In this document: positions 11,267 through 31,401 of the stretch, one piece after another
Position numbering within the stretch: the stretch's first letter is position 1
Layout: the number at the start of each line of letters is the position of its first letter
Origin: Williamsia sp.
Lineage (GTDB): Bacteria > Actinomycetota > Actinomycetes > Mycobacteriales > Mycobacteriaceae
Direction: 5' to 3'
Assembly (NCBI RefSeq): GCF_016462415.1
Contig: NZ_JAEMTF010000013.1
Location: 30,970 to 65,097 of the forward strand
DNA length: 34,128 bases
Position numbers and translations under genes: made by a program
The notes under the pieces: generated by a model
The model's database searches: none
What the model saw: the letters and a program-made list of their open reading frames with translations, nothing else
Told to the model about the DNA's origin: nothing

Positions 11267-12598
11267 TCAGGCCTCGACGATGGCCGTGACGCCCTGTCCA
11301 CCTGCAGCACAGATCGAGATCAGTGCGCGGCCGCCACCGTTTGCGTGCAGCTGCTTGGCCGTCTGGGCGACGATGCGTCCGCCGGTCGCGGCGAACGGGT
11401 GACCGGCCGCCAGCGACGATCCGTTGACGTTGAGCTTCGTACGGTCGATCGAGCCCAGGGCGGCGTCGAGACCGAGACGGCCCTTGCAGTACTCGTCGGA
11501 CTCGAACGCGGCGAGCGTGCAGAGCACGACCGAGGCGAATGCCTCGTGGATCTCGTAGTAGTCGAAGTCCTGCAGCGTGAGGCCGTTGCGCTCGAGCAGA
11601 CGCGGGATCGCGTAGGTGGGCGCCATCAGAAGGCCGTCGGGGCCGTTGATGTAGTCCACCGCGGCGGTTTCGACGTCCACCAGGTGCGCCAGCACCGGCA
11701 GGTTCTTCTCCGCGGCCCACTCATCGCTGGACAGCAGCACCGCCGACGCACCGTCGGTGAGCGGCGTGGAGTTGCCCGCGGTCATCGTCGCGTCGCCGAG
11801 TCCGACACCGAAGACCGGCTTGAGCTTCGCCAGCTTCTCCACCGAGCTGTCCGGACGCAGGTTCTCGTCACGGGTCAGGCCCAGGAACGGGGTGATCAGG
11901 TCGTCGAAGAAGCCTGCGTCGTACGCCTTGGCCATGTTCTGGTGGCTGGCCGCGGCGAGCGCGTCCTGATCGGCGCGCTTGATGCCGAACTCCTTGGCCG
12001 TGATGGCGGCGTGGTCACCCATCGACATGCCGGTGCGCGGCTCGCCGTTCTTGGGGATCTCGATGCCGATCTTGGGCAGCAGTGCAGCGATCGCCTTGAG
12101 GCGGTCGCCGGTGCTGCGGGCCCGGTTGACCTCGAGCAGCGCCTTGCGCAGCGGCTCGGAGACGCCGATCGGCGCGTCCGAGGTGGTGTCGACGCCGCCG
12201 CCGATTCCGGCGTCGTACTTGCCGGTCGCGATGCCGTCGGCGACGAGCGAGATGGCCGAGAGGCCGGTGCCGCAGGCGTGCTGGACGTCGATGCCCGGGG
12301 TGTACGGCGACAGGGCCGACCCGAGGACGGACTCGCGAATGAGGTTGAAGTCGCGCGAGTGCTTGAGGACGGCACCGCCTGCGACCATGCCCAGACGCTC
12401 ACCCTGCAGACCGAAACGGCTCACGAGGCCGTTGAGGGTGGCGGTGAACATGTCCTGGTTGCTGGCCTTGGCGTACGCCTTGTCCTGGCGGGCGAACGGG
12501 ATGCGGTTGCCGCCGACGATCGCGACCGGCCGAACCGTCTTCGCCTTGGCGGCGCTGGACTTGGCTCGAGTGCTCTTGGATGTTCCTGCTGTTGCCAC
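11267..12598 (-). CDS. fadA2: Thiolase / acetyl-CoA acyltransferase (FadA2/FadI-like)
   Basis: This 443-residue thiolase has nucleophile Cys109 (VQHACGTGLSAIS), the EIHEAF active-site His near 350, and the C-terminal ICAAGGQG acid/base Cys near 430. Thiolases cleave 3-ketoacyl-CoA in beta-oxidation or run the reverse condensation. A basic Ala/Lys/Ser N-terminal tail of about 20 residues precedes the domain. The gene is divergent from fabG4-htdX, as Rv0243 is from Rv0242c-Rv0241c in M. tuberculosis, which supports the FadA2 name. The ATG at 12598 lies 41 bp from an operator-like site at 12640-12659. Transcription probably ends at 11088-11143. Confidence 0.95.
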   Translation of the reverse strand: MATAGTSKSTRAKSSAAKAKTVRPVAIVGGNRIPFARQDKAYAKASNQDMFTATLNGLVSRFGLQGERLGMVAGGAVLKHSRDFNLIRESVLGSALSPYTPGIDVQHACGTGLSAISLVADGIATGKYDAGIGGGVDTTSDAPIGVSEPLRKALLEVNRARSTGDRLKAIAALLPKIGIEIPKNGEPRTGMSMGDHAAITAKEFGIKRADQDALAAASHQNMAKAYDAGFFDDLITPFLGLTRDENLRPDSSVEKLAKLKPVFGVGLGDATMTAGNSTPLTDGASAVLLSSDEWAAEKNLPVLAHLVDVETAAVDYINGPDGLLMAPTYAIPRLLERNGLTLQDFDYYEIHEAFASVVLCTLAAFESDEYCKGRLGLDAALGSIDRTKLNVNGSSLAAGHPFAATGGRIVAQTAKQLHANGGGRALISICAAGGQGVTAIVEA

Positions 12599-12639
12599 TG
12601 CTGATCTCCCCGGGTGTCGGATGGAAGCTATAGCGTATT

Positions 12640-12659
12640 CTTACTCGCGAGTAAGTTAC
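12640..12659. promoter_or_regulatory. TetR-type operator in the fadA2/fabG4 divergent promoter
   Basis: The sequence is CTTAC-TCGCGA-GTAAG followed by TTAC. The first 16 bases are a perfect palindrome. The same CTTAC-N6-GTAAGTTAC pattern recurs at 23905-23924 beside the Rv0238-like TetR gene. It sits 41 bp from the fadA2 start and 76 bp from the fabG4 start, well placed to repress both. Confidence 0.75.
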
Positions 12660-12735
12660 TTGTCGAACCCCGCCGGGTGCCAATGCGCAACCGCCGGGTG
12701 GGGTGGGGAAAACCAAACCAACAAGGAGTCATGAC

Positions 12736-14091
12736 GTGGCAAACACCGGCCTGTACTCGCAATTCGTTCATTCGCTTCCGGGCGCGTTCATCGCCAAGCA
12801 GGCGGGCCTGCCCGTGCCGCCGCCGCTGCGTCGGTACAAGCCGTCCGACCCGGCGCTGACCGGTCCGGTCCTGCTGGGCGGATCCGGGCGACTGATCGAG
12901 CCGCTGCGTGAGCTGCTCGACACCCCCGACTACGAGGTGATCCACAACAACGTCACCGGGAAGTCGGCCGACAAGTTCGGCGCCGTGGTCCTCGACGCCA
13001 CCGGCATCACCTCCCCTGCCGATCTGAAGGAGCTCTACGAGTTCTTCACCCCGACGCTGCGGTCGGTCACGCCGTCCGCGCGTTTCCTGGTCCTGGGCAC
13101 CACCCCCGAGCTGATCACCGACCCGAACGAGCGCATCGCGCAGCGCGCACTCGAGGGCTTCACCCGCTCGCTGGGCAAGGAGCTCCTCAAGGGTGCCACC
13201 GTGCAGCTCGTCTACGTCGCGCCCGACGCCCCGACCGGCCTGTCCGGTCTGGAGTCGACCGTCCGCTTCATCCTCTCGGCCAAGTCGACCTTCGTCGACG
13301 CGCAGGTCATCCGCATCGGAACCGGTGAGGCCACCCCGCCGGCGAACTGGGACAAGCCGCTCGAGGGCCGTGTCGCCGTCGTCACCGGTGCCGCGCGCGG
13401 CATCGGCGCGACCATCGCCGAGGTCCTCGCCCGCGATGGCGCACACGTCATCGTCGCCGACATCCCGGCCGCCGGTGAGGCGCTGTCGAAGACCGCGAAC
13501 AAGGTCAAGGGCACCGCGTTCCCCGTCGACGTGACCGCCGCCGATGCGGGCGCGACGCTGGCCGAGCTGGCCAAGGAGCGCTTCGGCGGCATCGACATCA
13601 TCGTCAACAACGCAGGCATCACCCGCGACAAGCTGCTCGCCAACATGGACGCCTCGCGCTGGGACTCGGTCATCGCCGTGAACCTGCTGGCACCGCAGAA
13701 GCTGGTCGACGACCTCATCGCCGCCGACGCACTGAAGTCCGGTGGCGCGGTCATCGACGTCTCGTCGATCGCGGGCATCGCGGGCAACCGCGGTCAGACC
13801 AACTACGGCACCTCGAAGGCCGGCGTCATCGGCCTGGTCGACGCCTACGCGCCGATCCTCGCCGAGAAGGGCATCACCATCAACGCGGTGGCCCCCGGCT
13901 TCATCGAGACCGCCATGACCGCCGCGATCCCGCTGGCCACCCGTGAGGCGGGGCGCCTGATGAGCTCGCTGCAGCAGGGCGGTCAGACCGTCGACGTCGC
14001 CGAGACCGTGGCGTACTTCGCGAGCCCGGCGTCGTCGGCCGTGACCGGCAACGTGGTCCGCGTGTGCGGCCAGGCCCTGCTGGGTGCCTGA
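12736..14091 (+). CDS. fabG4: High-molecular-weight 3-ketoacyl reductase FabG4
   Basis: This 451-residue SDR has an extra N-terminal domain of about 210 residues, the mark of mycobacterial FabG4 (Rv0242c, of similar length). The C-terminal half has the nucleotide motif TGAARGIG (217-224), NNAG (291-294), the catalytic DVSS (Ser343/344), Tyr357 and Lys361. It reduces 3-ketoacyl thioesters, with CoA esters and NADH reported for the family. The GTG at 12736 follows AAGGAG (12723-12728) by 7 bp and gives [16 protein letters not shown]; the upstream in-frame start at 12703 lacks support. The next gene, htdX, starts one base after its stop. Regulation through the operator at 12640-12659 is likely. 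Confidence 0.95.
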
Positions 14092-14092
14092 G

Positions 14093-14986
14093 ATGGCAAC
14101 CGTCGCACTCACCCGCCTCCCGGCGACCTCGGACGTCTACCGCAGTGCGGTGCTCGGGATGCTTCCCGGCATCGGCAAGAGCGGTCCGGTCCGGCCCGAC
14201 GCCTCTCTGCCCGACACCGTCTACACGGTGTCGAACCTGACCACCGACGCCGACCAGGTCCGGGCGTACTGCTCGGCGACCGGCCTGCAGTTCGGTGAGT
14301 TCCTGCCGCTGACGTTCCCGTTCGTCGCACAGTTCCCACTGATGATGCAGACCATGGTCGCCCGGGACTTCCCGTTCGGCGCGGTCGGTTCGGTGCATCT
14401 GGAGAACCGCATCCACCGACTGCGGCCGATCTCGATCGGCGAGCCGCTGTCGATCGCGACGCACGCGGAGAAGCTGCGCGAGCACCGCAAGGGCATCCTC
14501 GTCGACGTGGTCAGCCGTATCAGCGTGGGCACCGAGCTGGTGACCGAGCAGGTCTCGACGCTGCTGAGCCAGCAGCGCACGAGCCTGTCCGACGGCGAGC
14601 GGTCCGCCCCGCCGAAGGATCATCGGCCGCCGGCACCGGATGTGTCGCTCGCGGTGGACCTCGGGCGCATCCGTGCGTACGCCGGGGCCAGCGGTGACCG
14701 GAACCCGATCCACATGGCCAACCTGACCGCCAAGGCGTTCGGTTTCCCGCGTGCCATCGCGCACGGGATGTGGACCGCAGCAGCGATTCTGGGCAGCATC
14801 GAGGCACACCTGCCCGGCAATGTCGTCTACGAGGCGAAGTTCGGCAAACCGATCCTGTTGCCCGCCAAGGTCAACGGCTACGTCGACGCGGTCGATGGCA
14901 AGTCGGGCACGTCGGGTTACGACGTGTCGGTGCTCAACCGCAGCAAGGGCTACCCGCACCTGACCGGGACCCTGCGCGGCGCCTGA
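14093..14986 (+). CDS. htdX: MaoC-like (R)-3-hydroxyacyl dehydratase HtdX
   Basis: This 297-residue double-hotdog protein has the hydratase-2 motif YAGASGDRNPIH near residues 196-207, holding the catalytic Asp and His, followed by FPRAIAHGM. An N-terminal hotdog-like half precedes it. It hydrates or dehydrates trans-2-enoyl and (R)-3-hydroxyacyl thioesters. The order fabG4-htdX divergent from fadA2 is that of Rv0242c-Rv0241c. The ATG at 14093 is one base after the fabG4 stop. FabG4, HtdX and FadA2 together could run part of a beta-oxidation-like or reverse elongation cycle. A terminator follows at 15003. Confidence 0.93.
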   Translation: MATVALTRLPATSDVYRSAVLGMLPGIGKSGPVRPDASLPDTVYTVSNLTTDADQVRAYCSATGLQFGEFLPLTFPFVAQFPLMMQTMVARDFPFGAVGSVHLENRIHRLRPISIGEPLSIATHAEKLREHRKGILVDVVSRISVGTELVTEQVSTLLSQQRTSLSDGERSAPPKDHRPPAPDVSLAVDLGRIRAYAGASGDRNPIHMANLTAKAFGFPRAIAHGMWTAAAILGSIEAHLPGNVVYEAKFGKPILLPAKVNGYVDAVDGKSGTSGYDVSVLNRSKGYPHLTGTLRGA

Positions 14987-15002
14987 ACCGTTCTCTGTAC
15001 CC

Positions 15003-15040
15003 GAACTCCCCGTCGTGATCTATGTCACGGCGGGGAGTTC
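15003..15040. terminator. Stem-loop terminator after htdX
   Basis: GAACTCCCCG (15003-15012) pairs with CGGGGAGTTC (15031-15040). The stem continues through a T-G wobble into CGTGA/TCACG, giving a 16-bp helix with a 6-nt loop. There is no U-tract, as is common in actinobacteria. It separates htdX from the next gene. Confidence 0.75.
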
Positions 15041-15118
15041 GTGCATCTAGGTTGTTCGTTACGACTACACAATCACTGAGCTCGAAGACGTCGGGCCGAT
15101 CACGAAGGAGTGAGTTCC

Positions 15119-15664
15119 ATGGCTGCAGATTTCATCGACAAGGCACAGAACAAGGCGCAGGAAGTCGCCGGCGAGGCGAAGAAGGCGGTCGGTGACGCCA
15201 CCGACAACGACGACCTCAAGGCCGAGGGCACCGCCGACAAGGCCGGCGCCAAGACCAAGCAGGCCGGCGCCAAGGTCTCCGATGCCGCCGAGGATGCCAA
15301 GGACGCCGCCTCGGACGTCGCCGACGAGGCGAAGGACAAGGCCGAGGACGTCAAGGCCAAGGCCGAAGACGCCGCGCAGGACGCCAAGGAGCAGGCCAAG
15401 GACGTCGCCCAGGACGCGAAGGTCAAGGCAGACGAGGTCGCCGACAAGGCGAAGGACGCTGCCGCCGACGCGAAGGCCCAGGCCAAGGACGTCGCGCAGA
15501 GCGCAGAGAAGAAGGCGAACGAGGTGGCCGACAAGGTCGCGTCGAACATCCGCAGCATCAACAGCCGCGACGTGGAGAAGGCCGCCACCAGCCCGGCCCT
15601 CATCGCAGGTGTCGTGGCGGTCATCGCCGGCATCATCGCGGCGATCGTGATCAAGCGCCGCTGA
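15119..15664 (+). CDS. CsbD/LEA-like amphipathic repeat protein with C-terminal membrane anchor
   Basis: This 181-residue protein consists almost wholly of Ala, Lys, Asp and Glu. The first ~55 residues resemble CsbD stress proteins (KAQNKAQEVAGEAKKAVGDA, then DDLKAEGTADKAG). Residues ~55-145 are degenerate 11-residue repeats of the LEA/apolipoprotein kind (KAEDVKAKAED, QAKDVAQDAKV, KAKDAAADAKA), predicting a long amphipathic helix. It ends with a hydrophobic helix (SPALIAGVVAVIAGIIAAIVI) and KRR. That suggests a tail-anchored stress or membrane-coating protein. The ATG at 15119 follows GAAGGAG by 8 bp. It is monocistronic between two terminators. The function is inferred from composition. Confidence 0.85.
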   Translation: MAADFIDKAQNKAQEVAGEAKKAVGDATDNDDLKAEGTADKAGAKTKQAGAKVSDAAEDAKDAASDVADEAKDKAEDVKAKAEDAAQDAKEQAKDVAQDAKVKADEVADKAKDAAADAKAQAKDVAQSAEKKANEVADKVASNIRSINSRDVEKAATSPALIAGVVAVIAGIIAAIVIKRR

Positions 15665-15678
15665 TCTCTTCGGCAATC

Positions 15679-17846
<2,168 letters not shown>

Positions 17847-17855
<9 letters not shown>

Positions 17856-18332
17856 CGTCAGGCGCTGTTCGTACGTGCGGACCGCGCCGATCAGGATCCC
17901 GAACACCCGGTGGGCCGTCGCCAGATCGGCCTCGTCGACATCGGCGAGCGCGCCACGGGTGAGTTCGCCGAGCGGACCGAAGAACTCGCGTGCGACCTCC
18001 ATGCCGTGATCGTCGTAGCGCAGGATCACCCGGCGACGATCGTTCGGATCGGGCTCACGGCGGATGTGCCCGGAGCTGATCATCCGCTCGACGAGGTAGG
18101 TCATGGCCGCCGACGACATCCCCAGCGAGCTTCCCAGCCGACCGACGGTCAACGGGGCGCCCTCGACGTCGGCCACCATGATCCGCAACAGGGCCTGGAA
18201 ATCGTTGGCGCCGAGCTCGTGTTGGCCCGCGAACACCCGGCCCAACTGCTCGGACGCGGCCGCGAGGGCGCGCATGTCCGCCGCCATCGCCGACTCGAGT
18301 TCTGCACGTTCCACGTCGGGCAGCCTACCCAC
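17847..18332 (-). CDS. MarR-family transcriptional regulator
   Basis: This 161-residue protein has a winged-helix core: TVGRLGSSLGMSSAAMTYLVERMISSGHIRREPDPNDRRRVILRY holds the recognition helix and the DRR wing. Flanking helices would form the dimer interface. It is divergent from the MMPL transporter gene with about 56 bp between starts, the classic layout of a local repressor of an efflux gene. The GTG at 18332 has GGGAG three bases upstream; a GTG at 18314 is an alternative. The ligand is unknown. Confidence 0.9.
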
Positions 18333-18355
18333 GACTCCCGGATAAGTCTCACTTG

Positions 18356-18368
18356 CTTAACAGTTCAG
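18356..18368. promoter_or_regulatory. Candidate MarR operator
   Basis: CTTAAC-A-GTTCAG is an imperfect palindrome, with arms CTTAAC and GTTCAG differing at one symmetric position. It lies midway between the divergent marR and MMPL starts, just upstream of a -10-like GATTGT. Binding there would block the MMPL promoter. No second copy was found, so support is modest. Confidence 0.4.
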
Positions 18369-18388
18369 TTTCTGAGATTGTCGGTTTC

Positions 18389-20566
18389 GTGAACAACTCG
18401 AGTGTGAACAACCCGAGCGTGGAGACCACGAGCACTCGGACCTCCTCCGCCTGGGATCGCCTCGCCTCCGTCGTCAGCGGTCGTCGATCGTGGGCCCTCG
18501 GCCTGGTGATCCTGATCCTGGCCATCGCGTTCATGACCGTCGTCGGCGAGAACGGTTCCGGCGACGACTCGCCGGTGTCGCTGCCGGACTCGGCCCAGTC
18601 CGCGCAGATCGACGACGTCCTCGCGGCGTTCCCGGACGCCGACGTCACCCCGGCGATCCTGGTGGTGGACCGGCGCGACGGCGCCGCGCTCACCGACACC
18701 GACCGAGCGGCGATCGGGGACGCGCGGATTCGGATGCTCGCAGTCAACCGTTCACTGCCCGCAGGTCAGAGCTCCACCGAGGGCCCGACCGTCGTCGTCG
18801 CGCCGGACGGCAAGGCGGCCATCGCCACCGTCGGTGTCTCGTCGTCGCTGAGCGGCTTCGGCCTGCGCGACACCGTCGACGAACTGCGCGACGCCGCCGA
18901 CACCGGCCTGCCGTCGGACCTGCGGACGCACGTCACCGGCGGCCCCGCGTTCGCGGCCGACATCGCCAACTCGTTCTCCGGCGCCAACGTGACGCTGCTC
19001 GCGGTCACCGCGCTCGTCGTCGCCCTGCTGCTGATCGCGACGTACCGCTCCCCCGTCCTGTGGCTGGTCCCGCTGATCGTGGTCGGCCTCGCCGATCGCA
19101 TCGCGAGCTCCGCGGGAACCGCACTCGCCGCCGCGACCGGCCTGAGTTTCGACGGATCGACGTCCGGCATCACCAGCGTCCTCGTGTTCGGCGCAGGCAC
19201 GAACTACGCGCTGTTGCTCATATCGCGCTACCGAGAGGAGTTGCGGCGCTTCACCGACCACCGCGACGCCTTGCGCGCCGCGGTCCGACGGGCGGGACCG
19301 GCGATCGTGGCCAGCAACGTCACCGTCGTCCTCGCCCTGCTGATCCTGCTGCTCGCCGCGCTGCCGAGCACCCGCAGCCTCGGCGCCTTCGCTGCCGCCG
19401 GACTGTTCATCGCCGCGGTCTTCGTCCTGTTCGTGCTGCCGCCGGCATTGGGTCTGTTCGGGCGAAAACTGTTCTGGCCGTTCGTCCCACGTGCCGATAC
19501 CGACGCGGGCGCTGCACATGACACCGTCGAGCGCGGCGTGTGGCATCGGGTCGCGACCGGCGTGGTCGGGCACCCGGTTCGATCGGCGATCGCCGCGTTC
19601 GCGCTGCTCGTCATCTGCGCCGCAGGCCTGTTCGGCACGTCGATCGGGCTGTCGCAGACCGAGCAGTTCCGTGTCAGCGCCGATTCTGTCGTCGGGTTCG
19701 ACGTTCTCGACGAGCACTTCCCCGCCGGTCAGTCCGACCCGACGACCGTGACCGCATCCACCGCGGTCGCCGGTCAGGTCGACGCCGCGCTCACCGGTAC
19801 CCCTGGGGTGGAGTCGGTTCGACAGACCGGCACGTCCGACGCAGGCCAGACCCGGTGGAGCGTCGTACTGACCTCTCCCCCGGCCTCGAGCGGCGCGTTC
19901 GACACCGTCTCGACCATCCGGTCGACCCTGTCCGACATCGATTCGGCCGACGCATTGGTCGGCGGCAGCGACGCCCAGGCGCTCGACACCCGCAACGCCG
20001 CGGGCGACGACCGTCTGCTGCTGATCCCGCTGATCCTCGCCGTCGTGCTGGCCGTCCTGTTCGTCCTGCTGCGCGCCGTCCTGGCGCCACTCGTCCTGAT
20101 CGCCGTCACCGTGTCGAGCACGGTCGCCGCACTCGGACTGGGCAGCTGGGTCAGCGAGCACGTGTTCGGATTCCCCGCCCTCGACAACAACGTCGTGCTG
20201 TTCGCGTTCCTGTTCCTGGTCGCTCTCGGCGTCGACTACACGATCTTCCTGGTCACCCGGGCGCGCGAGGAGAGTGCGGGCCACCCCATTCCGACGGCGA
20301 TGATCCGCGCCGTCTCGGCGACCGGTGGTGTCATCACCAGCGCCGGTATCGTTCTCGCCGCGGTGTTCTGCGTTCTCGGGATCCTGCCGCTGATCACGCT
20401 GACCCAACTCGGGATCATCGTGGGTCTGGGAATCCTGTTGGACACGTTCGTGGTTCGCACCGTCGTGGTACCGGCCCTGTTCACCCTCATCGGCGAGCGG
20501 ATCTGGTGGCCGAGCCATCCCGGGCTCGATCGACCCCGGGCTGCCGAGACCTCTGTCCCGGGCTAA
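18389..20566 (+). CDS. MMPL/RND-family membrane transporter
   Basis: This 725-residue RND-type protein has two similar halves. Each starts with one TM helix and a periplasmic domain, then five TM helices. The second half has the proton-relay pair Asp616-Tyr617 (LGVDYTIFLVTRAREE). The first half has GAGTNYALLLISRYREE, with Asn272 where other MMPL proteins have Asp. The family exports lipids, siderophores or drugs. MarR divergence favours an inducible exporter. I favour the GTG at 18389 with a -10-like GATTGT close upstream (leaderless), but GTG 18404, 18419 and TTG 18353 are open. The GT2 gene follows after 9 bp. Confidence 0.93.
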   Translation: MNNSSVNNPSVETTSTRTSSAWDRLASVVSGRRSWALGLVILILAIAFMTVVGENGSGDDSPVSLPDSAQSAQIDDVLAAFPDADVTPAILVVDRRDGAALTDTDRAAIGDARIRMLAVNRSLPAGQSSTEGPTVVVAPDGKAAIATVGVSSSLSGFGLRDTVDELRDAADTGLPSDLRTHVTGGPAFAADIANSFSGANVTLLAVTALVVALLLIATYRSPVLWLVPLIVVGLADRIASSAGTALAAATGLSFDGSTSGITSVLVFGAGTNYALLLISRYREELRRFTDHRDALRAAVRRAGPAIVASNVTVVLALLILLLAALPSTRSLGAFAAAGLFIAAVFVLFVLPPALGLFGRKLFWPFVPRADTDAGAAHDTVERGVWHRVATGVVGHPVRSAIAAFALLVICAAGLFGTSIGLSQTEQFRVSADSVVGFDVLDEHFPAGQSDPTTVTASTAVAGQVDAALTGTPGVESVRQTGTSDAGQTRWSVVLTSPPASSGAFDTVSTIRSTLSDIDSADALVGGSDAQALDTRNAAGDDRLLLIPLILAVVLAVLFVLLRAVLAPLVLIAVTVSSTVAALGLGSWVSEHVFGFPALDNNVVLFAFLFLVALGVDYTIFLVTRAREESAGHPIPTAMIRAVSATGGVITSAGIVLAAVFCVLGILPLITLTQLGIIVGLGILLDTFVVRTVVVPALFTLIGERIWWPSHPGLDRPRAAETSVPG

Positions 20567-20575
20567 CCTTCCCCC

Positions 20576-21478
20576 GTGGAGGCCCTCACGGTGATGATCC
20601 CGGCGCGCAATGTGGCGACCACGGTCGAGCGCGCCATAGCCTCGGTGGCCCGAGCCCTGCCCCGCGACGGGCGGATCCTGGTCGTCGACGACGCGAGCGA
20701 GGACGACACCGCGGCCGTCGTGCAGCGCGTCGCACGGCGGGATCGACGCGTCGGTCTGCTCGACGTCGGCGGGCGACGTCTCGGCGTGACCGGCGCCGCC
20801 AACGCCCTGCTCGACGCCGCCGAGACCCCGTTGGTGGCACGGATGGACGCCGACGACGTCAGTCTGCCCTGGCGGTTCCGGTCCCAGCTGTCCCTGATGC
20901 GCCGCCACGATCTCGACCTGGTGTTCTCGCCTGCGCTGTTCGTCGGCCCCGGACGGTTCGCCGCCGCACCGCAGCCGCTGCTGGGCGCCAACCCCCGGTC
21001 GCTGTCGTACGAGCTGCTGCTCAACTGCGCGGTCATGCAACCGTCGCTCACCGGCCGCCGCAGCGCGATCCTCGACGCCGGCGGGTACCGCACGGTCCCG
21101 GCCGAGGACTGGGATCTCTGGATGCGACTGGCGCTCAACGGGACCCGGATGGGCCGGACGTCCCTTCCGTCGGTCGCCTACCGCAGGCACGCCGCCCAGA
21201 CCTCGTCACAGGAGTCCTACAAACAGGCCGTGGCCGCGGACGCCCCGACCGCACAGGTGCACCGCGACCTGTGTCGTTCGACGTTCGGTCGCGAGTACCG
21301 CGCCTACTCCGCGCTGACCGGCCCCGGTGCACCACCGGACGAGGTCGCCGACGCGGAGCAACTCATCGACGACGTGGCCGAGCGGGCGGCGGATTTCCCT
21401 CCTGCCGAACGGATCTCGATCCGTTCGACCGCGCACGGCCTCCGACTCCGCCTGCGCGGGCGCTACCCGACGGTCTGA
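20576..21478 (+). CDS. Family 2 glycosyltransferase
   Basis: This 300-residue GT-A fold enzyme opens with VMIPARNVATTVERAIASV and has VVDDAS (37-41) for nucleotide binding, the metal-binding DAD at 91-93, and an EDWDLWMRL acceptor/catalytic motif around 177-185. It has no membrane segment, so it acts in the cytosol; donor and acceptor are unknown. The GTG start at 20576 lies 9 bp after the MMPL stop. TAACCT about 8 bp upstream could be its own -10. Co-expression with MMPL would fit export of a glycosylated lipid, which is inference. The 3' end overlaps the convergent iclR gene by 16 bp. Confidence 0.9.
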   Translation: MEALTVMIPARNVATTVERAIASVARALPRDGRILVVDDASEDDTAAVVQRVARRDRRVGLLDVGGRRLGVTGAANALLDAAETPLVARMDADDVSLPWRFRSQLSLMRRHDLDLVFSPALFVGPGRFAAAPQPLLGANPRSLSYELLLNCAVMQPSLTGRRSAILDAGGYRTVPAEDWDLWMRLALNGTRMGRTSLPSVAYRRHAAQTSSQESYKQAVAADAPTAQVHRDLCRSTFGREYRAYSALTGPGAPPDEVADAEQLIDDVAERAADFPPAERISIRSTAHGLRLRLRGRYPTV

Positions 21479-22338
21479 CCCGCACCCAAGCCGGGATCGC
21501 GCGCCAGATCGTCGGCCGCCGACATCAGGGCCGCGATGTAGGCCTCGCGCTCATCGCGGGTGACGGACGGTCGCAGCGGGCCCATCTGCAGTTCGTGGGC
21601 CGCCTGCCCACCGACGACGACTGGTGCGGCGAGATAGCTGACCGGCAGCGCGGTGTCGTCGTCGAGTTCGTCGGCCGTGTAGGCCCGGGCCGTGAGCGCG
21701 GACAACTGCGTCAGCACCTTGGCGCGCAGTCGTGGCCGCAGCAGGTCGCTCCCGACGACGTCGAGCAGGTCCGCCAGGACCTCGACCAGACCCGCGTCCT
21801 CCGACGCCGGCCGGAACAGCACGTATCGACGACGCTGCACCAGCGCGAGCAGGTGTTCGCCGGCGACGCCGGCATCGGCCGCCCACCCGTCGCGCTCGGG
21901 TCCGCCGCGCCAGGGCATGACCGCGGCACCGGCCGGGTACGCCAGCGGAACACGGTGTCCCACGGGGAGACCCGGGATGTCGCGTGCACCACCGTGGGCC
22001 TTGGCCAGCACGGTCAGCGCACCGATGTCGATGCGGCTCAACGTCACACCGCACCCCACCTGCGCCCCGAGCGCTGCGAGGCGTGCCGCGACGGAGTCGG
22101 ACGGGGCCAGGCGCGCACCGACACCGGCCAGTGCCGGTCCCACCGCATAGCGGCGGTCGGTGTCGCGCGTGACCCACGACGCGTCGGCGAGTTCGCGAAG
22201 CACCGCGGTGGCCGTCGCCCGGGCGATACCGAGGGCGGCGGCGATCTCACCCACCCCCATCGGGCGGTCTGCGGACGCCAGCATCCCCACCACTGCGATC
22301 ACCCGACGTGTCGGCGGCGACGGAGATCGATCGACCAC
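21463..22338 (-). CDS. IclR-family transcriptional regulator
   Basis: This 291-residue protein has an N-terminal winged helix ([30 protein letters not shown]) and a C-terminal ligand-binding domain, less conserved than in typical IclR proteins. It is divergent from the SDR gene, which it probably controls. The GTG at 22338 follows GAGAGGAG by about 6 bp and gives [20 protein letters not shown]. The longest ORF, to 22551, runs through the SDR promoter and start and was rejected. Confidence 0.85.
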
Positions 22339-22429
22339 AGCCGACTCCTCTCGTCCTGGGCGGATGCTTGTCAGCTCGAGCGGGCAGTCCCTACACTGAG
22401 CCGCGCGTCGAAATAATAGACCAGTGTAT

Positions 22430-22443
22430 GACGAATATTCGTC
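22430..22443. promoter_or_regulatory. 14-bp perfect palindrome upstream of the SDR gene
   Basis: GACGAATATTCGTC is a perfect palindrome in the iclR/SDR divergent region, 21 bp before the chosen SDR start and just after AT-rich promoter-like sequence (AATAATAGA, TATGAC). It is a plausible operator for the IclR protein, although it is not a known IclR consensus. Confidence 0.45.
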
Positions 22444-22463
22444 GTCCGACCCAGGGAGCACCG

Positions 22464-23255
22464 ATGATCCAGGACCGATTCCGATTGGACGGGCAGGTGG
22501 CGGTGGTGACCGGCGCGGGTCGTGGACTCGGCGCCGCCATCGCGATCGCATTCGCCGAGGCAGGCGCCGACGTCGTCATCGGATCGCGTACCGAGTCCCA
22601 GCTCGACGAGGTCGCAGAGCAGGTGCGCGCCCTGGGTCGCCGCGCCGTGGTGGTCGCGGCCGATCTCAGCGACCCGGAGGTCACCGCAGGTCTGGCCACG
22701 ACAGCGAAGAACGAGCTCGGCCGCCTCGACATCGTCGTCAACAACGTGGGCGGCACCATGCCGAACGCGCTGCTCGACACCAGCGTGAAGGCGCTCGAAG
22801 GTGCGTTCCGTTTCAACGTGTCGACCGCGCACGCACTGACCTGCGCCGCGGTGCCGTGGATGCTGGAGAACACCGACGGCGGATCGATCATCAACATCAC
22901 CTCGGCGATGGGACGGCTGCCCGGCCGGGCGTTCGCCGCCTACGGAACCGCCAAGGCCGCGCTCGCCCACTACACCCGGCTCGCCGCCGAGGACCTGTCG
23001 CCGCGGATCCGGGTCAACGCCATCGCACCCGGCGCGATCGCCACCTCGGCACTGGAGATGGTCACCTCCGACGAGGGCATGCGGACCGGGCTGGAACGGG
23101 CCACCCCCCTGCGGCGCATCGGCCACACCGACGAGATCGCTGCGGCCGCACTGTATCTCGCCTCCGCGGCCGGCGCCTACACGACCGGGAAGATCCTCGA
23201 GGTCGACGGTGGGATCATCAAGCCCAACATGGACCTGCCGCTACCCGATCTGTGA
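22464..23255 (+). CDS. Short-chain dehydrogenase/reductase (SDR)
   Basis: This 263-residue classical SDR has the nucleotide motif TGAGRGLG (16-23), NNVG (93-96), catalytic Ser147, Tyr160 and Lys164 (YGTAK), and the PGAIATSAL and EVDGG end motifs. It is an NAD(P)(H)-dependent alcohol or ketone oxidoreductase; the substrate is unknown. I chose ATG 22464 for the AGGGAG site 5 bp upstream; ATG 22428 would add 12 residues and place the palindrome inside the gene. The divergent IclR suggests catabolic, substrate-induced control. The 3' end overlaps the convergent tetR gene by 15 bp. Confidence 0.92.
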
Positions 23256-23864
23256 GACGTGCTCTCCGGTGACCTTCTTGTCGCCGGCCAGACCGTGCCA
23301 CCCCATGCCGAACACGAGGTCGGTGGCGCTGTCGAGATCGATGTCGCCCTCGGTGATCCGGTCGGCCACCGCCTCACCGGCTCCGACGAGTGCGACCGCC
23401 ATCAACTCGAAGTCGGTCTCGGTCGCCTCGACCGTGGTGCCCCGGCGGAGCAGGTCGGCGATCATCTCGATGAGTCGAGCGCGGCTCGCATCGACGATCG
23501 CGGTGAAGTTCGACTGCGCGGTGGCCACCCGATAGAGCACCCGCCACGACGCCCGGTTGGTGTCGACGAAGTGCAGGAACTCGTAGATGACGGTGCGGGC
23601 CTGGTCGCGCTGCTTGAGGTTCGGGTCGAACCCGGTGCTCATGGCCTCGATGAACCGGCTGCCCTCACGGTTCACGCAGGCGGCGAACAGCTCGTCCTTG
23701 GAACCGTAGTAGAGGTAGAGCATCGGCTTGCTGATGTTCGCGGCGGCGGCGATGGTGTCCATCGCGGTCTCGCGGAAGCCCTTCTCGGCGAACACTGCGA
23801 CGGCTGCGTCGAGCATCTGTTGTTCGCGCACTGCGCGGGGGAGCCGCTTCGTGCCACCGGCCAT
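23241..23864 (-). CDS. TetR-family regulator, Rv0238-like
   Basis: This 207-residue protein has an N-terminal TetR HTH ([30 protein letters not shown]) and an all-helical ligand domain. The opening [20 protein letters not shown] and the linkage to lpqI resemble, from memory, M. tuberculosis Rv0238, which also lies between lpqI and htdX-fabG4-fadA2. A palindrome 39-60 bp upstream of its ATG (23903-23924) matches the fadA2/fabG4 operator, so it probably represses itself and that divergon. The ligand may be an acyl-CoA, which is inference. It follows the other tetR after 56 bp. Confidence 0.92.
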
Positions 23865-23902
23865 GGTCCACCGCCTTCCACCCGGTCCGAACTGAAGACC
23901 TC

Positions 23903-23924
23903 AACTTACCAGGCAGTAAGTTAC
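23903..23924. promoter_or_regulatory. TetR operator shared with the fadA2/fabG4 promoter
   Basis: AACTTAC-CAGGCA-GTAAGTT is a perfect 7-bp-arm inverted repeat, followed by AC. Bases 23905-23924 share CTTAC-N6-GTAAGTTAC with 12640-12659. It lies just upstream of the tetR start at 23864 and overlaps the stop codon of the preceding tetR (23921-23923). Confidence 0.75.
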
Positions 23925-24532
23925 GAACGCTCGACCGTGGCGACGTCGGCCCGACGGTAACCCACCGATTCGAGTGCCGCGGCGACGGTCATCTCGGCGA
24001 GATGGGTGTCGACGGCACCGAGTGCGGGCATCAGCGTGCGGAGCAGGAGTGGCCCGGTCAGCAGGTCGCAGATCTCGTCCGAATCGGCGACGGCGGCGAT
24101 GTCACCGCGATGGGCGGCCTGGTCGAGAGCACGGCGGACGGCCGCACGTCGCGGGGTCATGATGTCGTCGAACAGACGAGAACGCAGGGTGTCGTTGCGT
24201 GAACTCTCCTCGATCAGACCCGGCATCGCCCGGATGACCAGGGGATCGGTGAAGAACGCGATCTGTTGCTTCTGCACTGCGTCGAGGTCCGCGGGCAGAT
24301 CGCCGCAATCGGTACGGGGATCGAACACGACGCGGGAACTCATGGCCGCGGAGACGATCTGGGCCAGCGATGCATACCGGCGGTACACGGCCGGTCGTGT
24401 CGTGCCTGCGGCACGGGCCACCGCGTCGATGGTCGTCGCGCCGTAGCCGATCTCGACGATCATTCTCGCCGCCTCATCGAGAATGGCGTCGTCAATCGAC
24501 GAATCTCGTGGTCGCCCGGTGTTGACCATCAT
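23921..24532 (-). CDS. TetR-family regulator (second)
   Basis: This 203-residue TetR has an HTH around residues 27-55 (TTIDAVARAAGTTRPAVYRRYASLAQI) and a helical C-terminal domain related to the TetR_C group that follows PAVYRRY-type HTHs. It is distinct from the adjacent Rv0238-like TetR and I know no specific target. The start is ATGATG at 24532/24529. A TTACA-AGC-TGTAA palindrome 4 bp upstream suggests autoregulation. It is also divergent from a small membrane ORF at 24636, a possible target. Confidence 0.9.
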   Translation of the reverse strand: MMVNTGRPRDSSIDDAILDEAARMIVEIGYGATTIDAVARAAGTTRPAVYRRYASLAQIVSAAMSSRVVFDPRTDCGDLPADLDAVQKQQIAFFTDPLVIRAMPGLIEESSRNDTLRSRLFDDIMTPRRAAVRRALDQAAHRGDIAAVADSDEICDLLTGPLLLRTLMPALGAVDTHLAEMTVAAALESVGYRRADVATVERS

Positions 24533-27065: not shown

Positions 27066-30000
27066 CGTCCGTCCCCGCTCGGTGGATGATCAGCGTCTGA
27101 CCCGACGCGGGGTCGCGCTCGCGGCTCTGGCCGCTCTGATCGTCACGTTCGTCCAGTCCCCCGGCACCATCGCCGCCGACACCAAGCTCGATCTCACCGC
27201 CGACCCCGTCGGCTTCCTCGCCCGCGCGACGCACCTGTGGTCGTCGCAGGCTACCTTCGGTCAGGTCCAGAACCAGGCCTACGGCTACTTCTTCCCGCAC
27301 GGGGCGTTCTTCGTCCTCGGCGACGTCGTCGGCCTCCCGCCGTGGGTCACCCAGCGGCTGTGGTGGGCCGTGCTCGTCTTCGTCGGGTTCCTCGGCATCG
27401 TCCGGCTCGCCGAGGCTCTGGGTGTCGGTTCCCGGGGCTCCCGGATCGTCGCCGCGGTCGCCTTCGTGCTCAGTCCCCGCGTCCTGACGACCCTGGGATC
27501 GATCTCCTCGGAGACGACGGTGATGATGCTCGCGCCGTGGGTGTTGATCCCGGTGGTGATCGCCCTCAATCACCCACAGCTGCGATCGTCGTTGCGTCAG
27601 TTGGCGTTCCGATCGGCCTGCGCGGTCGCGCTCATGGGTGCGGTCAACGCCGTCGCCACGCTGGCCGCGTGCGGTATCGCCGTCGTGTGGTGGCTGGCGC
27701 ACGCCCCGGTCGTCACCGGCTCGGCGCAGAACAGGCCCGCCGCGCGGTGGGTCCGGTTCTCGCTGTGGTGGGCGCTCGGGGTGGCGCTGGCGTGCGCCTG
27801 GTGGATCGTCCCGCTGCTGATCCTCTCGCGGGTGAGCCCGCCGTTCCTCGACTTCATCGAGTCGTCGCGCGTCACCACGGAGTGGACCTCGCTCACCGAG
27901 GTCCTGCGCGGCACCAGTTCGTGGACGCCGTTCGTCTCCCCGGAGCGGGTCGCGGGATCGTTGCTCGTGAACCAACCGGCGGCCGTGGTCGCGACCGGGG
28001 TCGTCGCGGCGGCCGGACTCGCGGGACTCGCCATGCGCCGCATGCCCGGACGAGGACGTCTGGTCACGGCGCTCGTCGTCGGGCTGCTGCTGATGTGCCT
28101 GGGCTTCGCCGGGCAGCTCGGTTCGCCGGTCGCCGAACCGATCCGGGTGTTCCTCGACGGCGCGGGCGCGCCCCTGCGCAACGTGCACAAGTTCGACCCG
28201 ATGATCCGCATCCCCCTGGTCCTGGGCATCGCGCACCTGCTCGCGCGTATCCCGCTGCCGGGCACCGTGTCCTGGCCGCAGGCGGGTCGCGCGGCCGCCC
28301 ATCCGGAACGGTCACCGGCACTCGCCGCGACGATCGCGTTGCTGGTCGCCGTGGTGGGCGCCGGCTCGCTGGTGTGGACCGGACGCATCGCCCCGCAGGG
28401 AACCTACGACGAGATCCCCGACTACTGGTCGCAGACCGCCGACTGGTTGACGGCGAACTCGGGTCCCCGCGAGCACCCGGAACGCACCCTGGTGGTGCCG
28501 GGGGCACCGCTGGCCGACCAGAGCTGGGGACTGACCCGCGACGAACCGCTGCAGCCGCTGGCCGGTGTGCCGTGGGCCGTGCGCGACGCGATCCCACTGG
28601 TCCCGCCCGGTGCGATCCGGGCACTGGACTCGGTGCAGCGGCTGATCAGCTCCGGTCGGGGGTCGGCGGGGATGGCGGCGACCCTGGAACGACAGGGCGT
28701 CGGATACGTCGTCCTGCGCGCCGACCTCGATCCCACCGCATCGCGCTCGGCGCGACCGATTCTGGCCCAGCAGGCGCTGACGTCGTCGCCCGGTCTGGTG
28801 CGCGTCGCGCGGTTCGGGCCCGAGGTCGGTCCGCGGAGGATCAAGGGGATCGTCGGCGACGACGGGTTGGCGCCACAGCTGCCCGCGATACAGATCTTCG
28901 CGGTCCGTTCGGCCGCCGCGGGCACCTCGAGCGCGGGCACCGGACCGTCGGTGGTGGACCTCGACGCGATGCCGCGGATCGTCGGAGGTCCCGAATCGCT
29001 GGCGCGCCTGCAGGATCACGCCGCACTGACCGGTGCACCGCCGCTGGGCCCGGCGCTGCTCGACGCCGACGCCCGACGCGCCGGTGTCGACGACTCGGGT
29101 CCGTCCGGCGCCATCGTGACCGACACACCCACCGACCGAGAGACCGACTTCGGTCGCGTCGACGACCACAGCTCGGCCATCCGTGCCCCCGGGGACCGGC
29201 GGTCGACCCAGAACGCCGTACCCGACTACCCCGTACCGGGCGCCGGCCTGGTGCGCGGGCAGTGGCTGCTCGACGGCGCCCCGGATCAGGTGTCGGTCAC
29301 CGCGTCCGGATCTGCCTCGGATGCAACGCAGTTGGGGCAGACCTCGCCGGCGAACTCCCCCGCCGCGGCGTTCGACGACGACCCGAACACCTCGTGGATC
29401 AGCCGGGGCATCGACTCCGCGGTGGGCCAGTGGCTGCAGGTGAACTTCACCCGCCCGCGCTCCGACCTCGCCGTGACCGTCACCCCGGGCAAGGCCCTCG
29501 GCGCACCGGTCACGAGCCTGCTGGTCACCACCGAGGCCGGCAGCTCGGTCGCCCAGGGCCTCACGCCGGGCGCGAAGACCACCATCGTCGCTCCGAGCGG
29601 ACCGACCCGCTGGATCCAGGTGCGTGCCATCGGCACCGACAACAACACCGCCGGCAGCCAGTTCGCGATCGCGGAGATGTCGCTCACCGACACCCGCAGC
29701 GGCACCGATCTGGCCATCCGCCACCGCGTCGTCCTGCCGCCGTTGGTCGCGGGCCGGTCGGTCGCCGGCTGGGATCTGGGCACCGAGCTCGGCGGCCGGA
29801 CGGCGTGCGCGGCAGACGCAGATGTCACGCGCTGTTCGGCGGCGCTGGCCCTACCGCCCGAGGAACCCGGTGTCTTCACCCGGGTGCTGTCGGTGCCCGA
29901 GGCCATCGACGTCACCCCGCGTGTCTGGTTGCGCGGCGCCCCGGGAACAGCCCTCACCACCCTGCTGGCCGCTCCGGGATCGGTGCGCGCCCAGGGCGCC

Positions 30001-31401
30001 TCGCTGGTCGTCGATCCTCGCGGCACGGCCTCGGCGGCCGTCGACGGCGAACCCGGCACGTCCTGGATCGCCCCCGAGTCGACCACCACACCCGGCGCGG
30101 CACCCCCATCGCTGCGGCTCACGTTGCCCGCGGCCCAGCGCGTCGACACGATGACGATCACCCGTCCCCGCGGGCTGTACCCGGCTGCGCCGGTGCGGGT
30201 CGCGGTCGACCTCGGCACCGGCCGACAGGTGCGGAAACTGCCGGCCGACGGCCGGATCACCCTCGATCCGGCGGTGACCGACCGCGTCTCGGTGACGGTG
30301 CTGTCGTCGGCCGATCTCATCGACGTCAACAGCCTCGGCTTCGCCAAGCAGGCACCGGTGGGTATCGCCGAGATCGCCGTCGGCGGCGCGCCGCCCGCGC
30401 CGTCGGCCGACCGTGTCGTCACGGTGGGCTGCGATGCCGGCATCGGGATGGCCGTGGCGGGCCGCGTGGTGCCGTTGACGGTGACCACCACCGCACGCCG
30501 CCTTCTCGACGGAGACCCGGTCGCCGCTTCTCCCTGCGGCACGGACTCGGTGGCCCTGCCCGCCGGCGAGCAACAGGTGTCGATCACCCCCGGTGCGGCG
30601 TTCACGGTCGACTCGGCCACGCTCCAGCGCCCAGCGGCAGGGTCGCCGAGTGGGAATCGGGCGCAGCGAGGTTCGGAGCGAGAGCGGGCCCTGGCGCCAG
30701 AGGAATGGGGTGCCGATCACCGGACGGTCGACGTCGCGGCGTCGGGCTCGGCTCGTGTCCTGGTGGTTCCGGAATCACAGAACGCGGGCTGGCACGCCCG
30801 GGCAGGCGGTCGGGAACTGACCCCGATCGTCGTCGACGGCTGGCAGCAGGGGTGGATCGTGCCCGCGGGTGTCGCCGGGACGATCACGCTGGACTATCCG
30901 CTCGACGGCCCCTATCGCTGGTCGCTGCTGATCGGACTGCTGGCCGTGGCAGCCCTGTTCGCCGCCACGCTCATCGGGCGACGACGCCCGACGCGTGACG
31001 ATCGGCTGCCGGCGGCGACGCCGATCCGGGCGCCGCTGGCCGCCGCCGTCGCACTCGTGGTGGCCCTGACACTGCTCACCGGGTGGCCGGGTGCCCTGGC
31101 AGCTGTCGCAACCGCCGCGGCGGGTCAGTGGATCCGACGTCGACGTCCCCGGGCACTGCCGCTGGTGGTCGCCGCGATGTTCACACTGGCCGCCGCCGGA
31201 TTGTCACTCGGCCCGTGGCGGTCGCCGTCGGGCTACACCGGTTTCAGCTGGTGGGTTCAGCTCGCCGCGCTGATGGCGGTCACGCTCGTGGCCGCCGGGG
31301 CCGTGCCGGCGTCGCGGTCGGCGGCGGCCTGGCGTCGCTCACTGCGGCGACGTTCGGCGTCCCGCATCGCGCGCCGTGCCGGGTCCTCGATCAAGCCGTA
31401 G
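27040..31401 (+). CDS. aftD: Alpha-(1->3)-arabinofuranosyltransferase AftD
   Basis: This protein has up to 1453 residues; mycobacterial AftD has about 1400. The N-terminal ~450 residues are a GT-C membrane domain starting with SPGTIAADTKLDLTADPVGFLARATHLWSS...NQAYGYFFPHG, which holds the acidic loop motif for decaprenyl-phospho-arabinose. The large outer part contains two F5/8-type carbohydrate-binding modules (about 745-810 and 985-1045). Hydrophobic helices return at ~1290-1430. It branches arabinan of arabinogalactan and lipoarabinomannan. GTG 27040 overlaps the upstream gene; GTG 27082 is equally plausible. The 3' end overlaps the convergent acyltransferase gene by 145 bp. A repeat-like insertion lies at 30640-30708. 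Confidence 0.95.
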   Translation: MTTPECRTDVRPRSVDDQRLTRRGVALAALAALIVTFVQSPGTIAADTKLDLTADPVGFLARATHLWSSQATFGQVQNQAYGYFFPHGAFFVLGDVVGLPPWVTQRLWWAVLVFVGFLGIVRLAEALGVGSRGSRIVAAVAFVLSPRVLTTLGSISSETTVMMLAPWVLIPVVIALNHPQLRSSLRQLAFRSACAVALMGAVNAVATLAACGIAVVWWLAHAPVVTGSAQNRPAARWVRFSLWWALGVALACAWWIVPLLILSRVSPPFLDFIESSRVTTEWTSLTEVLRGTSSWTPFVSPERVAGSLLVNQPAAVVATGVVAAAGLAGLAMRRMPGRGRLVTALVVGLLLMCLGFAGQLGSPVAEPIRVFLDGAGAPLRNVHKFDPMIRIPLVLGIAHLLARIPLPGTVSWPQAGRAAAHPERSPALAATIALLVAVVGAGSLVWTGRIAPQGTYDEIPDYWSQTADWLTANSGPREHPERTLVVPGAPLADQSWGLTRDEPLQPLAGVPWAVRDAIPLVPPGAIRALDSVQRLISSGRGSAGMAATLERQGVGYVVLRADLDPTASRSARPILAQQALTSSPGLVRVARFGPEVGPRRIKGIVGDDGLAPQLPAIQIFAVRSAAAGTSSAGTGPSVVDLDAMPRIVGGPESLARLQDHAALTGAPPLGPALLDADARRAGVDDSGPSGAIVTDTPTDRETDFGRVDDHSSAIRAPGDRRSTQNAVPDYPVPGAGLVRGQWLLDGAPDQVSVTASGSASDATQLGQTSPANSPAAAFDDDPNTSWISRGIDSAVGQWLQVNFTRPRSDLAVTVTPGKALGAPVTSLLVTTEAGSSVAQGLTPGAKTTIVAPSGPTRWIQVRAIGTDNNTAGSQFAIAEMSLTDTRSGTDLAIRHRVVLPPLVAGRSVAGWDLGTELGGRTACAADADVTRCSAALALPPEEPGVFTRVLSVPEAIDVTPRVWLRGAPGTALTTLLAAPGSVRAQGASLVVDPRGTASAAVDGEPGTSWIAPESTTTPGAAPPSLRLTLPAAQRVDTMTITRPRGLYPAAPVRVAVDLGTGRQVRKLPADGRITLDPAVTDRVSVTVLSSADLIDVNSLGFAKQAPVGIAEIAVGGAPPAPSADRVVTVGCDAGIGMAVAGRVVPLTVTTTARRLLDGDPVAASPCGTDSVALPAGEQQVSITPGAAFTVDSATLQRPAAGSPSGNRAQRGSERERALAPEEWGADHRTVDVAASGSARVLVVPESQNAGWHARAGGRELTPIVVDGWQQGWIVPAGVAGTITLDYPLDGPYRWSLLIGLLAVAALFAATLIGRRRPTRDDRLPAATPIRAPLAAAVALVVALTLLTGWPGALAAVATAAAGQWIRRRRPRALPLVVAAMFTLAAAGLSLGPWRSPSGYTGFSWWVQLAALMAVTLVAAGAVPASRSAAAWRRSLRRRSASRIARRAGSSIKP
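30640..30708 (+). other. Repeat-like insertion inside aftD
   Basis: This in-frame stretch encodes SPSGNRAQRGSERERALAPEEWG, a hydrophilic Arg/Glu/Ser segment unlike the flanking beta-rich domain. The DNA is purine-rich (GCGCAGCGAG, CGGAGCGAGAGCGGGC), resembling the short GAGCGCAGCGAG-type repeats found in related genomes. It looks like an inserted repeat translated as a surface loop. It may also be a normal linker. Confidence 0.35.

Follow-up and report, generated by a model that had tools for sequence, protein, structure and literature searches.

A palindromic operator shared by fatty-acid degradation genes in Williamsia is very probably read by an FdmR-type TetR repressor

In a 34,128-nucleotide stretch of Williamsia sp. 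DNA (contig NZ_JAEMTF010000013.1; hereafter the window), we observe two copies of the palindrome CTTAC-N6-GTAAG, one between the divergent genes fadA2 and fabG4-htdX and the other upstream of a tetR gene of the FdmR (Rv0238) type. The palindrome is rare in the genome, lies in front of this tetR and of genes for fatty-acid oxidation, is conserved among relatives, and is found together with the TetR protein. We hold with high confidence that this protein is the Williamsia ortholog of FdmR and would repress genes of β-oxidation along with its own gene until released by long-chain acyl-coenzyme A (acyl-CoA). A fatty-acid-sensing repressor of the FdmR kind very probably binds the two window sites, a prediction made from sequence. 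The mechanism is already known in kind (FdmR, 2021), and the window is its Williamsia case.

Operator 1 (12640-12655, unstranded), CTTACTCGCGAGTAAG, lies in the intergenic region between the divergent fadA2 and fabG4 and is perfectly palindromic over its 16 bp, while operator 2 (23905-23920, also unstranded) reads CTTACCAGGCAGTAAG and has arms that reach AACTTAC/GTAAGTT (23903-23922). Both are followed directly on the 3' side by TTAC, which gives 14 fixed bases common to the two. These are the only matches in the whole window, the total stays at the same two palindromes when one mismatch is allowed, and an exact match turns up in none of 100 dinucleotide-shuffled versions of it. A first-pass annotation of this DNA had reported a palindrome with 14 identical fixed bases at 12640 and 23905, the first copy between the divergent fadA2 and fabG4-htdX genes and the second just upstream of an Rv0238-like tetR. 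Coordinates and bases are reproduced here, our assignments by NCBIfam and Pfam agree on the genes around the first copy, and the centre of the second lies ~48 bp upstream of the tetR ATG (23864). The genes concerned are the regulator itself (23241-23864, minus strand; Pfam TetR_N and TetR_C_46), a fadA2-type acetyl-CoA acyltransferase, or thiolase (11267-12598, minus strand; NCBIfam PRK09268, 763 bits against a cutoff of 539), the 3-oxoacyl reductase gene fabG4 (12736-14091, plus strand; NCBIfam PRK08261, 672 bits against a cutoff of 410, and 607 bits to PDB FabG4 5vp5), and a MaoC hydratase (14084-14986, plus strand; Pfam MaoC_dehydratas), which we take to be of the HtdX type from synteny. 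A promoter-like pair for fadA2 (12637-12666, minus strand), matched by consensus, consists of TCGACA and AAGAAT separated by 18 nt, and its spacer holds operator 1; one such pair is found against a shuffle mean of 0.1. We looked for a similar pair at operator 2 and found none.

Across the assembly (4,952,409 bases in 243 contigs), the exact palindrome occurs in four places, the same pattern read backwards in one, and all four exact places precede this tetR or genes of fatty-acid oxidation. The third place (L010) lies before two successive acyl-CoA dehydrogenase genes, and another copy of the palindrome, with one mismatch, is found 22 bp further on. We take this pair to be FadE24/FadE23-like; a PDB sequence search with the FadE24-like protein gave no match at E 1e-60. 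The fourth (L011) precedes genes whose best NCBIfam matches are the beta and then the alpha type of electron-transfer flavoprotein (ETF). When the pattern is relaxed to TTAC-Y-N4-R-GTAA, we recover seven genomic places and none for the backward control, and the three places thus added all precede acyl-CoA dehydrogenase or oxidase genes. One is fadE5, whose product scores 847-850 bits to five FadE5-type PDB chains and 820 to a chain named FadE5; another encodes a dehydrogenase matching PDB 3pfd (705 bits), presumably FadE25-like; and the last is an acyl-CoA-oxidase-like gene, with its start taken as the ATG just downstream of the site. The first-pass annotation had suggested such a scan, with the prospect that the motif might prove common genome-wide and without a link to lipid genes, and what we find instead is four exact places, all at tetR or β-oxidation genes. 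Its proposed FadA2-FabG4-HtdX regulon does carry sites but was drawn too small, with two of the seven candidate sites seen, and its reading of a TetR acting on a lipid divergon is both supported and widened to a larger regulon by the seven places. Given the shuffles, the four exact genomic places and the clean backward controls, we reject a chance origin of the sites.

Both the best sequence match and the best fold match of the window TetR are to PDB 3f1b from Rhodococcus sp. RHA1 (251 bits, 60% identity), which is very likely its ortholog and whose title gives no function. After 3f1b, the folds nearest to our structure model (mean predicted local distance difference test score, pLDDT, 86.5) are those of FasR with C20-CoA and with DNA, and Bacillus FadR is among the ten best. 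FasR of M. tuberculosis, a long-chain acyl-CoA sensor, is the next fold match, but the identity is only 23-24%. Membership in three characterized families was rejected on NCBIfam equivalog scores, which were 86.8 bits for FasR (cutoff 330), 47.9 for Bacillus-type FadR (cutoff 200) and 23.9 for KstR (cutoff 280). Bacillus FadR is an acyl-CoA-responsive TetR acting on acyl-CoA dehydrogenase and ETF genes, with an operator that differs from the one in the window. The stretch ISKPMLYLY of the recognition helix does not vary among 13 aligned orthologs. The likeness to FdmR (Rv0238/M. marinum) lies in its TetR type and in its reported action on fatty-acid degradation genes including fadE5. In passages of PMC12403877 and PMC9262360 that cite Dong et al. 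(2021, PNAS), FdmR figures as a repressor of genes for fatty-acid degradation that responds to long-chain acyl-CoA, and as a regulator of fadE5; the study is cited also in passages of PMC10501769 and PMC10701892. Judged from the sites found here, the operators of the window TetR stand at fatty-acid degradation genes, and its gene lies in the lpqI-tetR-htdX-fabG4-fadA2 neighbourhood, as would be expected of an FdmR ortholog.

The conservation of this arrangement was followed in 80 named loci of Williamsia, Gordonia, Rhodococcus, Nocardia and their kin, which are the best 80 of at least 568 and were chosen independently of the site. Among the matches listed, Williamsia maris stands close to the window (TetR 97%). 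In all 74 loci where the FabG4 start could be aligned, an exact site precedes fabG4, and 61 of the 80 loci have one no more than 150 bp upstream of tetR, while the backward control is absent from the 1.58 Mb of these loci. LpqI is a neighbour in 77 loci, FadA2 in 75 and HtdX in 74. A comparison of fadA2/fabG4 and tetR promoters in relatives was also suggested in the first pass, and the site is retained before fabG4 in every alignable case. Exact sites are likewise present in 30 of 30 short FabG4 loci from genomes that we take to be Mycobacterium (FabG4 identity 80-89% among the matches listed). When this genus was searched with the M. tuberculosis FabG4, 388 of its 396 genomes gave a match, and since identity reached no more than 89% among the matches listed, M. 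tuberculosis itself was not found. In 20 longer regions of this Mycobacterium-like kind (L366-L385), the exact site lies between fadA2 and fabG4 in 19, the exception being L380, which has no tetR in the region. The first-pass annotation had placed Rv0238, htdX, fabG4 and fadA2 close together in M. tuberculosis; in 18 of the 20 Mycobacterium-like regions, TetR, HtdX, FabG4, FadA2 and FadE5 fall within 14 kb, the tetR-htdX-fabG4-fadA2-fadE5 neighbourhood that likens the window system to FdmR. The remaining two are a region truncated at a contig end and one without TetR. Compared with these regions, this Williamsia has an 8-kb block between tetR and htdX, carries fadE5 on another contig, yet still with a site, and retains an intact operator at tetR where theirs is degenerate or absent. 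At L191, a record titled Kitasatospora arboriphila carries this locus with a TetR 78% identical to that of the window; the record is possibly mislabelled or contaminated.

Site presence also tracks FdmR presence across the 101 genomes of the family that we searched for the TetR at E 1e-20. There were 92 matches, of which that in G004 (30% identity) was left out as a non-ortholog, and the remaining 91 have at least 41% identity. All 91 genomes with this TetR contain an exact site, while nine of the ten without it have none; the tenth, G014, is 66% complete and has three. The family genomes are related and the nine belong to three genera (g3, g5 and g8), so that they do not amount to nine independent tests. 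In two genomes of g3 (L307, L308), presumably Corynebacterium, fadA2-fabG4-htdX are retained, and neither FdmR nor a site was found. In genus g8 (G007 and G037; regions L305 and L306), we likewise found no FdmR and no CTTAC-N6-GTAAG, and the fadA2 and fabG4 genes are kept. Here, two GCTACTCnnGAGTAGC-type palindromes occur 22-23 bp apart in the fadA2-fabG4 gap, where relatives have the FdmR operator, one of the two in L306 having a mismatch. The best TetR matches in g8 score 90 and 101 bits and look FasR-like by eye. A strict rule of no TetR, no site for every lineage was rejected, as it fails in spirit for g8, given these pairs. In G037, one further near-copy of the GCTACTCnnGAGTAGC-type palindrome is seen by an SDR-like gene.

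To the four sites of the Williamsia genome we added 131 sites in 111 regions from 28 further genomes, which gives 135 exact sites in 29 genomes of 28 genera; the gene caller shortens some starts, so that site-gene distances are approximate. The most frequent neighbours are the FadE24-like gene (31 sites) and fadA2/fabG4 (27), followed by a DUF4442 gene (14), a 660-residue SDR (PRK07201; 10), etfB (6) and the FadE23-like gene (3), where FadE24 and FadE23 are again names that we presume. Our script assigned 18 sites to tetR and 26 to other genes; one tetR site was misfiled, L151:6683, which actually lies 37 bp before a tetR match, and the corrected counts are 19 and 25. The neighbours scanned for 17 of the 26 other sites include FadD6- and FadD2-like ligases, lipases and a FadH/OYE-type reductase. 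The DUF4442 gene is a frequent operator neighbour in 14 of the 29 genomes (L101, L111 and 12 further). Because it so often adjoins the operator, a role of the DUF4442 family in acyl-CoA metabolism is suggested.

In the mechanism that we propose, an FdmR homodimer would bind AACTTAC-N6-GTAAGTT and, when bound, repress the genes of fatty-acid β-oxidation and fdmR itself. Since operator 1 occupies the promoter-like spacer of fadA2, the bound protein may block the polymerase there. The reported ligand of FdmR is long-chain acyl-CoA; it would enter the C-terminal pocket, upon which the operator would be released and the pathway switched on. From the sites, the candidate targets are fadA2, fabG4-htdX, fdmR, the FadE24/FadE23-like pair, etfBA, fadE5, the FadE25-like dehydrogenase and the acyl-CoA-oxidase-like gene.

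Several observations weigh against this reading. Binding, repression and ligand would carry over to Williamsia from the published FdmR, and direct orthology to Rv0238 or M. marinum FdmR is presumed, with 51-59% identity to the TetR of the 18 Mycobacterium-like regions. The ETF names at L011 rest on NCBIfam matches below the curated cutoffs. When up to one mismatch is allowed, the palindrome occurs in nine genomic places and the backward control in 25, with no enrichment, and signal is therefore confined to the exact or near-exact palindrome. About 25 of the 135 sites adjoin other genes, some with no link to lipids, such as those for a pseudouridine synthase (L104) and a dihydrolipoamide-dehydrogenase-like protein (L100). 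Finally, 19 of the 80 named loci have no exact site at tetR; nor does any of the 18 Mycobacterium-like regions that contain tetR, where a degenerate one is seen in four. The autoregulated TetR of the first-pass annotation is supported for Williamsia, Gordonia, Rhodococcus and Nocardia. In the Mycobacterium-like genomes, autoregulation looks weakened or decayed, because the tetR site is degenerate or absent while the fadA2/fabG4 site is exact in nearly all of the regions.

Among the alternatives, the one that survives best keeps the operator and changes the ligand, for example to a branched-chain or dicarboxylic acyl-CoA. The C-terminal domain of the TetR is less conserved than its DNA-binding helix, which would allow for this, but the targets are general β-oxidation genes, including those for FadE5 and ETF, and the nearest folds include long-chain acyl-CoA sensors, and we consider a different ligand improbable. 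It is much less likely again that the sites belong to another regulator, with FdmR binding elsewhere. The obvious candidate is a second TetR-family gene (23921-24532, minus strand; TetR_C_11), which goes unmentioned in the first-pass annotation, lies directly upstream of fdmR and whose TAA stop (23921-23923) abuts operator 2, so that site and stop codon overlap in the extended arms. This second gene is present in four of the 80 named loci, all Williamsia, as against the site in all 74 alignable fabG4 promoters and 61 tetR promoters, and across the 101 family genomes the site tracks FdmR. Being confined to one Williamsia clade, the second TetR is unlikely to bind the operators, and we reject it on its distribution. 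Slightest of all is the chance that the sites are conserved for other reasons, such as overlapping promoter elements or short divergence, and apart from any acyl-CoA regulation: operator 1 does overlap a promoter-like pair and related genomes are non-independent observations, but the identical palindrome also occurs at unlinked genes, A at position -2 (77%) and a pyrimidine and purine at the spacer edges are conserved outside the searched letters while the mid-spacer is not, and the two g3 genomes keep fabG4-fadA2-htdX without FdmR and without the site.

In 150 genomes of the order, in which 16 families were sampled, we observe strong TetR-profile matches (E 1e-55 or better) in five families (f1, f5, f12, f14 and f15). 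In 14 regions with such a TetR from the four sister families, TetR, htdX, fabG4 and fadA2 occur together in eight, the others being cut short or having these genes elsewhere. Exact CTTAC sites are kept by tetR or fabG4 in f5 and f12, while in f14 and f15 the best sites shift to CCTAC...GTAGG or CCTAC...GTAAG; none of the sites in one f14 region (L297) is convincing. A second and usually weaker copy starts exactly 16 bp away among the five best-scoring sites in 12 of the 14 regions (L291-L296, L298-L302 and L309, the exceptions being L297 and L310), a raw count with no chance baseline. Tentatively, and at somewhat less than even chances, FdmR may be a fatty-acid switch of ancient origin, found in no fewer than five of the 16 sampled families, whose operator and regulon are being rewired. 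The window's family would then have a single 16-bp unit, sister families pairs with a 16-bp period and CCTAC arms, and Mycobacterium a decayed autoregulation; regulator and site would have been lost jointly elsewhere and, in one genus without FdmR, replaced by another regulator reading GCTACTC-N2-GAGTAGC at the fadA2/fabG4 promoter.

In the literature searched, which included few subscription papers and did not cover the original FdmR paper, we found no report of this operator outside Mycobacterium. Nor did we find there an earlier account of the reach into four sister families, of the CCTAC drift with 16-bp doubling, of the joint absence of regulator and site, or of the similar palindromes in one genus that lacks FdmR. 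In the portions consulted of PMC4482099, Rv0238 is one of five TetR regulators retained throughout the mycobacteria that were compared; the motif table of that paper covers divergently placed regulators, and Rv0238 is not among the rows seen. A guess from two sites has thereby become a genome-wide list of genes probably controlled by one acyl-CoA sensor in Williamsia and its relatives, with exact operators now defined for testing. FadE23-FadE24 are likely FdmR targets and hence of interest for isoniazid: a passage of PMC11980559 describes the pair as upregulated by the drug in mycobacteria and also ascribes its control to SigE, and a listing in PMC8613195 includes the region before Rv0238 among its candidates, with sensitivity to isoniazid probably increased. 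Derepression of FdmR by accumulated acyl-CoA would be one possible link to these effects, and this link is our own.

The remaining features of the window lie around the locus. The first-pass annotation had described an inserted ~8-kb block separating tetR from the lipid genes; the block is real (15119-23255, unstranded, between htdX and fdmR) and clade-specific, encoding CsbD, an aldo-keto reductase, an alpha/beta hydrolase, an MMPL transporter, a GT2 protein, an IclR regulator and an SDR. Four of the 80 named loci, all Williamsia, carry its MMPL, GT2 and SDR genes at an identity of at least 50%. Further along, an AftD-type arabinofuranosyltransferase (27082-31401; Pfam GT-C_AftD) is what the M. 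tuberculosis neighbourhood would lead one to expect.

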